Both the position numbers and the translations under genes were made by a program. The notes under the pieces are model-generated. The model searched no databases, had not been told where the DNA came from, and worked only from the letters and a program-made list of their open reading frames with translations. From Deltaproteobacteria bacterium (GTDB taxonomy: Bacteria > Desulfobacterota > Desulfuromonadia > Geobacterales > DSM-12255), in the NCBI GenBank assembly GCA_021849045.1, contig JAJZTK010000006.1, forward strand, positions 1 through 60,983: a DNA stretch of 60,983 nucleotides, read 5' to 3'. Positions 12,001 to 41,078 of the stretch are shown here, one piece after another. Position 1 is the stretch's first letter, and the number at the start of each line of letters is the position of its first letter.

Positions 12001-12723
12001 TCAGCAGTAGTTGGCGAGCATTGGCGAAGTGGAGTGCCCGGCATAATTCCCTTCATCGGTTATAAATGCCCAGACAGCGGGATTTTCGGCTTCGGTCCGC
12101 TGTAACTGGCGCGTAAGGTTGGCGTGACACGGCTGGCGCATCCCATGATAATTGATCAGCGGACCGATCGGGATAAAATGGATCGATAGCCGCGCCAGCA
12201 GCCGAATCAGGGCTGGCTCCATTACCGCAAACAGTTCATCGACACCATGCTCCCGGCTCATGCGCACAACGCCCCGCATCAGTCCCAGACTGAGCACCGG
12301 CAACGAAGGAGCCACCCGTTGACCTTGTCCCCCGAGCGACTTGCTGATGGCAAACCTAGACACCTCAGCCGCTCCGCCGAAGATGAACTGCCGGTCGTGC
12401 AACATTTTATGGTTACAGATCTTCTGGATCGGAAAACTCTGATCAAGCTGCTTGTATTTCGGCAGAATCAGTCGGACATTACCCACGGCATTTTCATGAG
12501 CATCCACAAGCAGCGTGTGGACCGACTGATCGTCAAAGGCATCGAACTCCATGCCTAAACTCTTATCGCAGGATTCGTACTGCTTCTCCACGCAGTATAC
12601 TTGATAACGGAGCTGAAAAGCCTTTTGAAGCTGGTCAGAGGTAGCGACCGGCAGCAGCTTATACGGTCCAAGTGGACCATCAGCTACATCCGTGACATTT
12701 CTCGCTGATGTGTTCAGCAGCAT
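12001..12723 (-). CDS. PEP-CTERM/exosortase system-associated acyltransferase (GNAT/FeeM-like)
   Basis: 240-aa protein of the exosortase-associated acyltransferase family, related to N-acyl amino acid synthases with a GNAT fold. The N-terminal core LRYQVYCVEKQYE, the central VGNVRLILP strand, and AAEVSRFAISKSL followed by VLSLGLMRGVV fit that family. The likely reaction is acyl transfer from acyl-ACP or acyl-CoA to an amino group, though no substrate is known. ATG 12723 follows GGGAGGT. The leader contains a GEMM-I riboswitch and a terminator (12749-12856), so expression should respond to a cyclic dinucleotide. The exosortase locus that this family accompanies lies at 39.6-61 kb. Confidence 0.85.
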   Translation of the reverse strand: MLLNTSARNVTDVADGPLGPYKLLPVATSDQLQKAFQLRYQVYCVEKQYESCDKSLGMEFDAFDDQSVHTLLVDAHENAVGNVRLILPKYKQLDQSFPIQKICNHKMLHDRQFIFGGAAEVSRFAISKSLGGQGQRVAPSLPVLSLGLMRGVVRMSREHGVDELFAVMEPALIRLLARLSIHFIPIGPLINYHGMRQPCHANLTRQLQRTEAENPAVWAFITDEGNYAGHSTSPMLANYC

Positions 12724-12748
12724 TCGTCTTACCTCCCTGGACCAGGCA

Positions 12749-12797
12749 CAAAAAAACCGGGTCGTCGATATCTATGTGAGATATTTCGGCGACCCGG
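12749..12797 (-). terminator. Riboswitch-controlled intrinsic terminator
   Basis: On the minus strand CCGGGTCG (12790-12797) pairs perfectly with CGACCCGG (12757-12764). The stem is extended by ATATCT/AGATAT inside and is followed by seven T (12750-12756). The 5' arm is also the conserved 3' part of the aptamer (after GACAG), so aptamer folding and the terminator are mutually exclusive. Ligand should therefore turn the gene on. Confidence 0.85.
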
Positions 12798-12856
12798 CTG
12801 TCTCGGTGAGACCCGTAGGCTTTCCGTCCCATCCTCGCGGATGGTTTAGTATTATC
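12780..12856 (-). promoter_or_regulatory. GEMM-I cyclic-dinucleotide riboswitch aptamer, probable 3',3'-cGAMP subclass
   Basis: The minus strand shows the whole GEMM-I core in order: AAACC, the hairpin CCATCC-GCGA-GGATGG with a GNRA tetraloop, GGGACGGAAAGCC, the receptor stem GGGTCTC..GAGAC, then GACAGCCGGGT and GCCGAAA. Outer GATA (12853-12856) pairs with TATC (12780-12783). The base matching ligand-contacting G20 of the Vibrio aptamer (third before AAACC) is A here, and the base before AAAGCC is G instead of C. As I recall the published structures, both changes mark the cGAMP-selective Geobacter type. Class GEMM-I is firm; ligand preference is inferred. Confidence 0.9.
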
Positions 12857-12881
12857 GTCTATCTATGTAAATTACCCTGTG

Positions 12882-12910
12882 TAAATACCAAAAATTATCC
12901 CTGTTGGCAA
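12882..12910 (-). promoter_or_regulatory. Weak candidate promoter of the riboswitch leader
   Basis: TTGCCA (12905-12910) and TATTTA (12882-12887) with a 17-bp spacer on the minus strand, about 25 bp upstream of the aptamer. The -35 box fits well and the -10 box poorly. Confidence 0.35.
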
Positions 12911-12932: not shown

Positions 12933-14228
12933 TCAGTACTGAGACGCAAGTACGCGATGCAGGCCCGCAGGTGTCGCCTCGGCTACGGCCACAGGAACCT
13001 TGAGAGCCTCCTCCAGAGCACTGACCGGCAGGTCGTCCAGAAAAACCCCCTCCCCTTCCTTCAACATCACGTCCGGGATCACCACCAGACTGCCAAGGTC
13101 GCGACCTTCCAGGGCGGCAACGATATCCCGACCGGAGACGAGCCCGGTAACCGTCACGCTCTCACCGAACAGCCGGTTTTCCACTGGCACCAGATCAAGC
13201 GTAGCACCGGTCCGTTCGGCGAGGCTCCGGAGAAAATCAGCCAGGTATGGCAGGGGCGACAGGCCGCTCACCACGGTGACGTGCAGCGGCGGTAAAGGTC
13301 CTGCCATAGAAAGCACCTCCGCAGCCTCTTCCCGAAACAGGGGGATCATCCCCACACCGTTTTCCAACTGCGGGAAGTCGCCGTACTCCTCAGCCGGCGG
13401 AAACGGGAGTTCCGCCTTGAGGAAAAACTCGTCGGCCAGAAAAAGAAACGGTTCCCCTAAACGCCCGGCAACCTCCCTGGCCCTAGGCTGCCACTGCGCG
13501 ATGAACGCGACTGCGTACTCCTTGGTCACTGGCTCCAGGTGCGGCAGTCCGCGACGATGCCTGGTGAGCCCAACCGGCACGATGGCCAGGGAGGCCACCT
13601 GCGGATAAAGGGCTGCCAGCTCCGCAACCGTCTGCTCCAGTACCCCTCCGTCGTTCAGCCCCGGGCAGAGAACTACCTGTGTATGCATGGTAATCCTCGC
13701 CTCGGCCAGCTCATTCATGACCTCCAGGATCGGCCGGATCCCCTTCTTCCCCAGAAGCCGCTCACGCAGCGCCGGGTCGGTGGCATGGACCGAGACGTAG
13801 AGGGGAGAGAGCCGCTGTTCCTTGATCCGCGCCAGCTCTGCATCGCCGATATTGGCCAGGGTCACGTAGTTGCCGTAGAGAAACGAGAGCCGGTAGTCCT
13901 CGTCCTTCACGTAGAGCGGTGGCCGGAGCCCCTTGGGGAGCTGGTGCACAAAGCAAAAGACGCAGCGGTTGCCGCACTTGGCCGGCGCAGGCGGGGCAAA
14001 GGTGAGCCCCAGCGGCTCTTCCTGCTCCCGCTCCACCTCCATTTCCCAGATCTCGCCGTCTGCCTTGAGTATCTCCAACAAAAGCTCAGGCTCGTCGCAA
14101 TAAAACTGATAGTCGATGATATCCCGCAACGGGTGGCCATCGATCGCCACCAGCCGGTCGCCGGGAGTGATCTCCAGTTCCTCGGCAATGCTCCCCGAAG
14201 CTACGGCTGAAACGAGCAGTCCGGCCAT
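12933..14228 (-). CDS. DUF512 radical SAM protein with N-terminal PDZ domain
   Basis: 431-aa protein of the DUF512 family, widely conserved in anaerobes and cyanobacteria with no settled function. A PDZ-like domain (residues about 1-65; PGDRLVAIDGHPLRD) precedes the 4Fe-4S motif CGNRCVFC with Cys85, Cys89 and Cys92, typical of radical SAM enzymes. The DUF512 core follows. I chose ATG 14228 because GGGAGGAGG precedes it and it overlaps the upstream TAA as TAATG. An in-frame start at 14261 would lie inside the previous gene and lacks that site. It is translationally coupled to the AI-2E-family permease gene. Confidence 0.88.
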   Translation of the reverse strand: MAGLLVSAVASGSIAEELEITPGDRLVAIDGHPLRDIIDYQFYCDEPELLLEILKADGEIWEMEVEREQEEPLGLTFAPPAPAKCGNRCVFCFVHQLPKGLRPPLYVKDEDYRLSFLYGNYVTLANIGDAELARIKEQRLSPLYVSVHATDPALRERLLGKKGIRPILEVMNELAEARITMHTQVVLCPGLNDGGVLEQTVAELAALYPQVASLAIVPVGLTRHRRGLPHLEPVTKEYAVAFIAQWQPRAREVAGRLGEPFLFLADEFFLKAELPFPPAEEYGDFPQLENGVGMIPLFREEAAEVLSMAGPLPPLHVTVVSGLSPLPYLADFLRSLAERTGATLDLVPVENRLFGESVTVTGLVSGRDIVAALEGRDLGSLVVIPDVMLKEGEGVFLDDLPVSALEEALKVPVAVAEATPAGLHRVLASQY

Positions 14229-39601: not shown

Positions 39602-40228
39602 TCAGTCGGGCAGGAAATTGTTCATGAGTGGCAGAAAATCTTTCATGAAGGATTCAATGGGCTGGAATGCACTTTTGCCATCGCCCGACGCGGGCGCCGA
39701 GAGCCTGATGAAGGCAGCATCGTTTCGCTGATAACGGAGAGAATTGAGGATCATGTACCATTTCAGGCCATAATCGCTTGTAATGGTTGCGTTTTTCATC
39801 CGGTACCAGTAAACGAATGACTCTCGGCTCTCACCCTTCTGGTAAAGGGCCTCGACGAACCTGACAGGGCCATAGCCGGCAATAGTCGTGGTGCCGGTCC
39901 GCTCGGAAAGCTTCTGCCACCCCCCGCCCGGCAGGCAGTGTTTCGGGGAGTGGATCTGCGCCCCCTCCCTCTGTGCCCCATAGTAACCTACATAGAGCGA
40001 CAGCCTCTGTCCGCCGCGCACATATTCGCGAGAGAGGTATTCGGTCACCTTCAGCTTGTCCAGGACCACGTCAGTGAGCAGTTGGTCCCTTCCGGTCCAC
40101 CCGTTATGCTGCAAGGGAAACTCGGCAAAGGGCCGCTTCAGCGGCACGACCTGATGGAACGGCACAAAATGAAGAACAAGTCCTGCGATCAGGAGCAAGG
40201 CGGACGCGATATAGAGGCGCTTATTCAT
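39602..40228 (-). CDS. epsI: Exosortase-associated protein EpsI (DUF3485)
   Basis: 208-aa protein with one N-terminal membrane helix (about residues 5-24) and a periplasmic domain. Diagnostic features are SREYVRGGQRLSLYVGYYGAQ and the motif SPKHCLPGGGW. EpsI accompanies, or is fused to, many exosortases and is needed for exopolysaccharide production or sorting, with an unclear activity. It overlaps the exosortase gene by 8 nt and is the last gene of the leftward polysaccharide locus. Confidence 0.9.
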   Translation of the reverse strand: MNKRLYIASALLLIAGLVLHFVPFHQVVPLKRPFAEFPLQHNGWTGRDQLLTDVVLDKLKVTEYLSREYVRGGQRLSLYVGYYGAQREGAQIHSPKHCLPGGGWQKLSERTGTTTIAGYGPVRFVEALYQKGESRESFVYWYRMKNATITSDYGLKWYMILNSLRYQRNDAAFIRLSAPASGDGKSAFQPIESFMKDFLPLMNNFLPD

Positions 40229-41078
40229 GGCGCTGCCTCCCTATCTTCCCCAGGACTACGGACGAGAGGAGCAACAACGCCATGGCGACCCCGAAGATCA
40301 CCAACCCGGCAAACTCGTGGAAAAACCCCTCTGCGGCCCTTGAGCCGTAACGACTGGCCAGGACACCGGTGCCAATGACCCGGATGGCATTAGCAAACAC
40401 GGCAATCGGCAACGCCAGTAAGATCAGTACCCAGCGCTTCAAAAGCCCATGATGGCTGAACCAGGCAAGGGCCGTGGCCAAGGCTAGGAGAGAGACGATT
40501 GAACGGATGCCGCTGCAGGCATCCGCCACCTCCAGAGTGGTACTCACCAGATTAATGACATTTCCCTCCCGGTAGACCGGGATGCCGATCAACTTGAGGA
40601 ACGCCACCGAATACCTGGAGACCAGAAGTTTCAGCGGGAAAGCAACCGCATCGTAGAGGATATAGGGGAGTGGGATCATGAAGATCAGGTAGCCGAAGGG
40701 AAACGCCACTTTCTTGAATACGGCAAACCCTGTCGAGAAGATGATCACCCCGGCCAGGACAACGAGCATCGAAATCCGCATGGTAAAGGCTTCACCGGCA
40801 ACCATGCCGAACAGGTCGAGACAAAGCCCGGCGAGGAGCACGACCACTCCCCAGTTTGCCGGTGCCGGTTTGAGAGAACGCAGGTCATCCTTTCGCAACC
40901 AGAGGAAGTATCCGGAGATGAATGGAACGAGAAAACCATGGGAATAGTTCTCGTCATGGTACCAATCGAGGACCATGCCGCGGATGGCATCGAAATAAAG
41001 AACTACGAAGGCTGCCGCAAATATCACGACGGAGAGGATGCCGACAGCACCGCGGCCCTTCGCTTCCGTACCGGTCAT
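40221..41078 (-). CDS. xrtA: Exosortase (probably type A/EpsH)
   Basis: 285-aa polytopic membrane transpeptidase of the exosortase/archaeosortase superfamily. Its seven or eight helices carry the conserved catalytic set: Cys188 in ADACSGIRS, Arg233 in NAIRVIGTG and His254 in FFHEFAGL. It should cleave PEP-CTERM-type tails of exported proteins and attach them to a surface glycolipid or polymer. The surrounding genes belong to families described with exosortase A, which is why type A is favoured. Its start overlaps the CapK-like stop as ATGA. No PEP-CTERM substrate is encoded in the window. Confidence 0.88.
   Translation of the reverse strand: MTGTEAKGRGAVGILSVVIFAAAFVVLYFDAIRGMVLDWYHDENYSHGFLVPFISGYFLWLRKDDLRSLKPAPANWGVVVLLAGLCLDLFGMVAGEAFTMRISMLVVLAGVIIFSTGFAVFKKVAFPFGYLIFMIPLPYILYDAVAFPLKLLVSRYSVAFLKLIGIPVYREGNVINLVSTTLEVADACSGIRSIVSLLALATALAWFSHHGLLKRWVLILLALPIAVFANAIRVIGTGVLASRYGSRAAEGFFHEFAGLVIFGVAMALLLLSSVVLGKIGRQRHE

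Follow-up and report, generated by a model that had tools for sequence, protein, structure and literature searches.

A GEMM-I riboswitch with adenine at the ligand-specificity base precedes a TIGR03694 acyltransferase gene in a Geobacterales genome

The window analyzed in this study is a stretch of 60,983 nucleotides (contig JAJZTK010000006.1) from a member of the order Geobacterales. On its minus strand, an intergenic gap of 209 nt separates a PDZ/radical-SAM/DUF512 gene, which ends at 12933, from an acyltransferase gene (ATG at 12723; 240 codons), and a GEMM-I aptamer was found inside this gap, with the gene start about 60 nt 3' of the aptamer. The acyltransferase gene stands alone and is followed by a tRNA (11666-11593) and argJ. 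The features of the locus are listed in Table 1, together with an exosortase gene, an EpsI-family gene and a GGDEF protein that bear on its interpretation.

Table 1. Features of the riboswitch-acyltransferase locus and of possibly related genes (window coordinates unless a contig is given)
Feature	Position	Strand	Evidence
TIGR03694 acyltransferase, LuxI/FeeM fold, 240 aa	12001..12723	-	212.9 bits vs 111.95; Pfam Acetyltransf_5, Autoind_synth, FeeM; modelled fold
Shine-Dalgarno-like GGGAGG	12732..12737	-	read from sequence
Seven-U tract of terminator	12750..12756	-	read from sequence
Terminator hairpin, 8-bp outer stem CCGGGTCG/CGACCCGG	12757..12797	-	folding; consensus fold of 8 leaders
P2 3' strand CCGGGU, common to aptamer and terminator	12792..12797	-	Rfam alignment, computed folds
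GEMM-I aptamer, A20 type	12785..12860	-	RF01051 50.2 bits (cut-off 35); RF03167 53.1 bits (cut-off 59, under)
P1b hairpin CCATCC-GCGA-GGATGG	12829..12844	-	5/6 pairs changed on both sides among 18 A20 aptamers
Ligand-specificity base A (Vc2 G20)	12850	-	read on minus strand; A in 8/8 related leaders
Possible sigma-70 promoter TTGCCA, 17 nt, TATTTA	12882..12910	-	by eye; near-identical in G007
EpsI-family protein adjoining exosortase	39602..40228	-	TIGR02914 148.4 bits vs 42.8
Exosortase (XrtA type), possible partner system	40221..41078	-	TIGR03109 225.4 bits vs 208; PF09721 256.1 bits
HAMP-GGDEF protein, Hypr-site Ser, GGDDF motif	L099, G000:C106:12071-13417		resembles GSU1937 as described

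A sequence-only reading of this DNA had claimed a complete GEMM-I core on the minus strand and proposed a covariance-model search with RF01051. When the whole window was searched against Rfam, a single RF01051 match above the gathering threshold was returned at 12860-12785 (-), with an E-value of 7.2e-7, and the claimed core was thereby borne out; the only other Rfam matches in the window were two tRNAs. Position 11 of the RF01051 model is A in the window aptamer, and we take this position to be equivalent to G20 of Vc2, whose numbering is used here. On this numbering A20, C21 and U22 are located at 12850, 12849 and 12848, G45 and G46 at 12825 and 12824, and A47 at 12823. C21 and U22 face G46 and G45, A47 is retained, and G46 is the base preceding AAAGCC, in agreement with both base assignments of the earlier reading (A at the G20 site and G before AAAGCC). 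The c-di-GMP-I-GGC family (RF03167), with which the aptamer shares the GEMM-I core, outscored RF01051 in a lax search and yet stayed below its own cut-off; its consensus carries G at positions 20 and 47, whereas the window aptamer has A at both, and with the signature G47 absent, membership of RF03167 was rejected.

Conservation was analyzed in 18 aligned A20 aptamers, comprising eight linked to TIGR03694 genes and ten more from the window's own genome. In P1b, five of the six pairs showed changes on both sides, and 98.2% of cells were paired, against 94.6% for shuffled and 35-50% for slid controls, while P2 was nearly invariant and carried little covariation information. The bases A20-C21-U22, G45-G46 and A47 were identical in all 18, and the four G20 aptamers of the own genome differ at these sites. 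The 82-nt aptamer stretch alone did not fold unusually well against shuffles (z -1.4, 20 of 200 as good), so the evidence for the aptamer comes from the covariance model and conservation and not from stability. A chance or artefactual match was ruled out by the curated score and by recurrence in seven other genomes.

Downstream of the aptamer, CCGGGTCG (12797-12790) pairs with CGACCCGG (12764-12757), followed by seven U (12756-12750). The 5' arm of this terminator starts with CCGGGU (12797-12792), which is also the 3' strand of aptamer P2; aptamer and terminator are thus mutually exclusive, as had been claimed, and ligand should turn the gene ON. The 122-nt leader had a folding energy of -42.2 kcal/mol, which was matched by a single one of 200 shuffles (z -3.7). 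Stepwise-length folding was applied to the window leader and seven relatives, and in the lowest-energy folds of all eight the terminator first captured the P2 strand at 102-105 nt from the aptamer start, only once the last bases before the U-tract had been made. At full length, the terminator fold was better than the best aptamer-keeping fold by 12.8-23.6 kcal/mol in the eight leaders, with the energy of ligand binding left out. These computed folds fit a leader that would behave as a ligand-ON transcriptional riboswitch. Upstream, a possible -35 element (TTGCCA, 12910-12905) and a possible -10 element (TATTTA, 12887-12882) were picked out by eye, and the end of the region marked by the earlier reading (12910) coincides with the first -35 base. 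A consensus scan listed neither this candidate promoter nor the terminator (the scan allows loops of 3-8 nt, and the 8-bp outer stem encloses 25 nt); since the promoter is absent from that list, its assignment to sigma-70 is a guess.

To place the locus in a wider context, 141 genomes of the order were searched for TIGR03694, of which 13 matched at E 0.001 and ten, together holding 19 genes, scored above the cut-off. An A20 aptamer with a terminator lies directly 5' of a TIGR03694 gene in eight of these ten genomes (8 of the 19 genes), at a spacing of about 60-160 nt as judged by eye. All eight aptamers read A20-C21-U22, each is followed by a terminator, and the aptamer-terminator-gene order spans three families. 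The nearest case is G007, in which the protein is 97% identical to the window acyltransferase and the switch is intact. In the protein tree, seven of the eight switch-bearing proteins, including that of the window, fall into one clade, and the eighth (G119) belongs to another subfamily; the same clade holds a protein from an Acidobacteria MAG with no aptamer within 6 kb upstream. Parsimony on this tree required three label changes, for which the simplest history is two gains with a single loss. Model R1, run over 59 loci, gave six strong matches (G007, G087, G059, G062, G064 and G022), and the remaining 53 contained no credible match, L110 (14.2 bits, E 0.85) being at chance level. Elsewhere in the class, 20 TIGR03694-like loci were searched and none had an aptamer, and no GEMM-I element was found near the LuxI-like genes (PF00765) of G046, G050 and G051 (places L039-L041). 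Because none was found outside the order in the loci searched, the aptamer-TIGR03694 pairing looks confined to the order within that scope. The window element is a genuine, conserved riboswitch-gene pair.

The encoded protein matched TIGR03694 (PEP-CTERM/exosortase-associated acyltransferase, exosort_acyl) at 212.9 bits against a cut-off of 111.95, which confirms the gene family claimed earlier, and gave weaker Pfam matches to Autoind_synth and FeeM. An AlphaFold model was built from a 22-row alignment (mean pLDDT 84.3). The nearest solved structures in a PDB sequence search were AHL synthases (5w8c, E 3.6e-7); FeeM was absent from that search at E 0.01 but was found by fold comparison of the model, in which TofI (Z 18.6), LasI (Z 18.0) and FeeM (Z 17.8) tied. 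Residues R39, E59, D61, D64, R84, E120, S122 and R123, which are catalytic-site positions of the LuxI/FeeM fold, were invariant in 22 of 22 aligned relatives, and E120 is presumed to be the catalytic Glu from the E-x-S-R motif. AHL synthases carry a conserved Trp after the F/Y-x-E motif; the corresponding residue is Y49 in the window protein, and among the 22 relatives one has W and the other 21 have F or Y. N-acyl amino acid synthases have been reported to adjoin PEP-CTERM/exosortase genes, with Craig 2011 as the cited source (PMC4897644, PMC7293339). The conserved residues, the missing Trp and this literature together favour an N-acyl amino acid, which is the somewhat likelier product of the enzyme.

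The association with exosortases, as stated by the sequence-only reading, is by family name: the window gene stands alone, although in the relatives the gene lies among exosortase-system genes. The exosortase and EpsI genes of the window are located about 27 kb from it, with a run of glycosyltransferase-like genes; in 39602-60981 they occupy one end of this minus-strand run, within which no GEMM-I match was found. The own genome contains four exosortase matches above the cut-off (one of them weak) and five PEP-CTERM matches. Among the relatives, G064 shows the order riboswitch, acyltransferase, TIGR03008 protease and PepA-type PEP-CTERM protein (94.1 bits, cut-off 80); TIGR03008 and a second TIGR03694 gene adjoin the switch-bearing gene in G087 and G062, and a PEP-CTERM protein is encoded downstream of the acyltransferase in G059. 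Exporter genes also occur nearby: in G022 a HlyD/ABC/MacB-type exporter is encoded upstream in the opposite orientation, and in G087 a MacB-type permease is encoded downstream. Two TIGR03694 genes are arranged divergently in G064, G059 and G062, with the switch before only one of them.

Fifteen GEMM-I aptamers were identified in the own genome, 11 of the A20 and four of the G20 type by eye. Over three genomes, 29 of 43 aptamers were A20 (11/15 in the own genome, 11/17 in G119 and 7/11 in G087), in a count that includes as G20 six unparsed and two out-of-register rows read by eye and omits the sub-threshold fragment L240. A20 is therefore the usual state, and the finding that eight of eight aptamers before TIGR03694 genes are A20 is by itself weak evidence for cGAMP; enrichment of A20 as a proof of the ligand was dropped for this reason. 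In one aptamer of G119 (L218, G119:C60:39939-40015), A20 occurs in an otherwise c-di-GMP-type context (G21-C22 with G45-C46), which provides a natural test of whether A20 is sufficient. cGAMP riboswitches are an established trait of Geobacter: 13 GEMM-Ib riboswitches are listed for G. sulfurreducens and 12 GEMM-I riboswitches were demonstrated to bind cGAMP (PMC8835794), and deletion of gacA is reported to have lowered all genes behind GEMM-Ib (PMC6456294). Affinity capture failed to enrich known cGAMP riboswitch transcripts (PMC8835794), which reflects a limit of the capture method, and the base-20 site has been termed a selectivity factor and not a hard filter (PMC9262584). cGAMP is the likely ligand of the window riboswitch.

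Candidate cGAMP-making enzymes were sought among the GGDEF proteins of the own genome, in which 22 matches, two of them to one domain, represented 21 domains. The Hypr-deciding site, which we equate with Ser348, is Ser in one of the 21 domains, a candidate Hypr enzyme, and Thr in another. The Ser-bearing protein, L099, is likened to GSU1937 by its published description (HAMP and GGDDF; PMC8835794). A long homologue of L099 with Ser was present in 11 of 14 chosen genomes, including all eight with the aptamer-TIGR03694 pairing, and the three genomes lacking it had 2, 0 and 0 GEMM-I matches. In the GSU1937-like protein of G064 the signature is GEDAF, and its counterparts in G059, G062 and G022 no longer have Asn in the ND motif, so activity in these four is doubtful. 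No GacA-type GGDEF with Ser was found among the 21 domains. L091 (G000:C191:56847-57317) is a membrane GGDEF protein with an intact GGDEF motif and Thr where the canonical residue is Asp and the Hypr residue is Ser.

Several other GEMM-I loci of the own genome were also recorded. Six aptamers are clustered in about 10 kb of G000:C32:18965-40599, on a contig that also has an exosortase gene, a PEP-CTERM protein and glycosyltransferase-like genes. Four of them form tandem leaders in L020 (G000:C32:20600-40599; aptamers at C32:33985 and 34194, and at C32:37661 and 37865), in which a G20 aptamer carrying a separate terminator-like hairpin lies about 130 nt 3' of an A20 aptamer; these leaders precede secreted fn3/Big_7 proteins of 1089 and 371 aa, and the remaining two aptamers of the cluster lie before polysaccharide-lyase-like proteins. 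An inverted-repeat search of the tandem leaders returned nothing, but folding does show hairpins. If the two bases mean cGAMP and c-di-GMP, the tandem leaders would be two-messenger AND gates. A20 aptamers separated by about 1.1 kb in L025 (G000:C246:1355-5464) stand one before an uncharacterized 283-aa protein and one before an 895-aa multihaem-cytochrome-like protein, an arrangement as expected for the electron-transfer cGAMP regulon.

Overall, we consider it likely that an A20 (GEMM-Ib) ON riboswitch with a cGAMP-released terminator controls the single acyltransferase gene, whose enzyme would make a surface or exported lipid. In the proposed mechanism, polymerase would stop at the U-tract when ligand is absent. 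A Hypr-type GGDEF protein of the cell would supply 3',3'-cGAMP, whose binding would keep P2 in the aptamer; no terminator would form and the acyltransferase would be made. The enzyme would then acylate an amino acid to yield a lipid that is exported or placed on the surface and tied to the exosortase/exopolysaccharide system, and cGAMP would set surface lipid chemistry along with cytochromes and adhesion-type proteins. A bolder version is put forward tentatively, in which RNA would relay cGAMP from a pathway sensing contact or electron acceptors into a diffusible or surface N-acyl amino acid acting on neighbours or on exosortase-anchored proteins, the switch having been acquired more than once.

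These proposals have to be weighed against three others. The ON switch may be real and yet sense c-di-GMP, or both dinucleotides about equally, as is reported for the A-class OmcST switch (PMC6456294); a Desulfobacca A20 aptamer is likewise described as having gained cGAMP affinity while its c-di-GMP affinity was perhaps only slightly reduced (PMC9481103), and the four G20 aptamers among the 15 of the own genome suggest that c-di-GMP riboswitches work in the same cell too. We regard this as unlikely, given the core bases shared by all 18 A20 aptamers and not by the four G20 ones, the demonstrated cGAMP binding of 12 G. sulfurreducens riboswitches (PMC8835794) and the predicted Hypr-type GGDEF protein in the genome. 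That the aptamer and the gene were brought together by accident, or that their link has decayed, a riboswitch copy having landed without effect, is highly improbable: the fifteen aptamers of the own genome do imply that copies move about, and the window gene lies outside an exosortase operon, but the same order in eight genomes of three families, the intact switch of G007 and the covariation of P1b all contradict it.

The remaining alternative concerns the product and not the ligand. The enzyme might be an AHL synthase in which the riboswitch takes the place of a LuxR regulator, as was suggested for Gmet_2037 in 2009 (PMC2700814), and both the closest solved sequences and the tie in fold comparison are compatible with such a role. 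Against it, TIGR03694 and the Pfam FeeM model both match, and the Trp conserved in AHL synthases is replaced by F or Y in all but one of the 22 relatives, so that this alternative appears not very likely. If the favoured explanation is correct, it would give the cGAMP pathway of Geobacter a specific output other than cytochromes and pili, and the role of TIGR03694 acyltransferases would become directly testable, since the switch indicates when the enzyme is produced. This explanation is built from known parts and needs no new kind of system.

The suggestion of the earlier reading that the locus extends the cGAMP regulon beyond extracellular electron transfer was overstated. Other surface genes are part of the known regulon, among them the lipoprotein transpeptidases GSU0181-0183 (PMC6456294) and the fibronectin-type GSU1945, which lies two loci from the PEP-motif GSU1943 and GSU1944 and is among the genes with GEMM-I (PMC10599522, PMC8835794). 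A conserved element that overlaps with predicted c-di-GMP riboswitches was described before Gmet_2037 in 2009, and this gene was suggested to encode a riboswitch-regulated autoinducer synthetase (PMC2700814). Within the literature covered, no paper was found that links a cGAMP riboswitch with TIGR03694, and the gene class may already be tabulated in Kellenberger 2015 or Nelson 2015; no paper on riboswitches and exosortases was found that makes the riboswitch-acyltransferase link, and none was found on cGAMP riboswitches and PEP-CTERM. As judged from sequence, the new elements are the family of the protein, its pairing with the A20 class, the shared terminator logic and a distribution across three families. 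If the favoured explanation is correct, the 2009 proposal of an autoinducer-like synthase under riboswitch control would thereby gain a protein family, a likely ligand and a phylogenetic extent.

Besides RF03167, three known systems resemble the locus closely. Like the Geobacter GEMM-Ib (cGAMP) riboswitches described before pgcA, GSU1761 and other genes (PMC6456294, PMC8835794), it combines the GEMM-I fold, A20 and a predicted ligand-released terminator (ON) with a position before a surface-related gene and a candidate Hypr GGDEF in the genome, but its target, known here from sequence, is a LuxI/FeeM-fold acyltransferase and not a cytochrome or pilus gene. Gmet_2037 of G. metallireducens, compared here by its published description, is weakly autoinducer-synthetase-like, has a riboswitch element 5' and lies divergent to the similar Gmet_2038 (PMC2700814), a layout that matches G064, G059 and G062, whereas its ligand was then thought to be c-di-GMP. 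The N-acyl amino acid synthases FeeM, Nas354 and Nas343 share the fold and the conserved catalytic Glu (E120 here, by motif), and the Nas354 type is reported to bear a PilZ-like c-di-GMP-binding domain (PMC4897644), so that a parallel exists for cyclic-dinucleotide control of such enzymes; in the window gene, control would be exerted by RNA and not by a protein domain.
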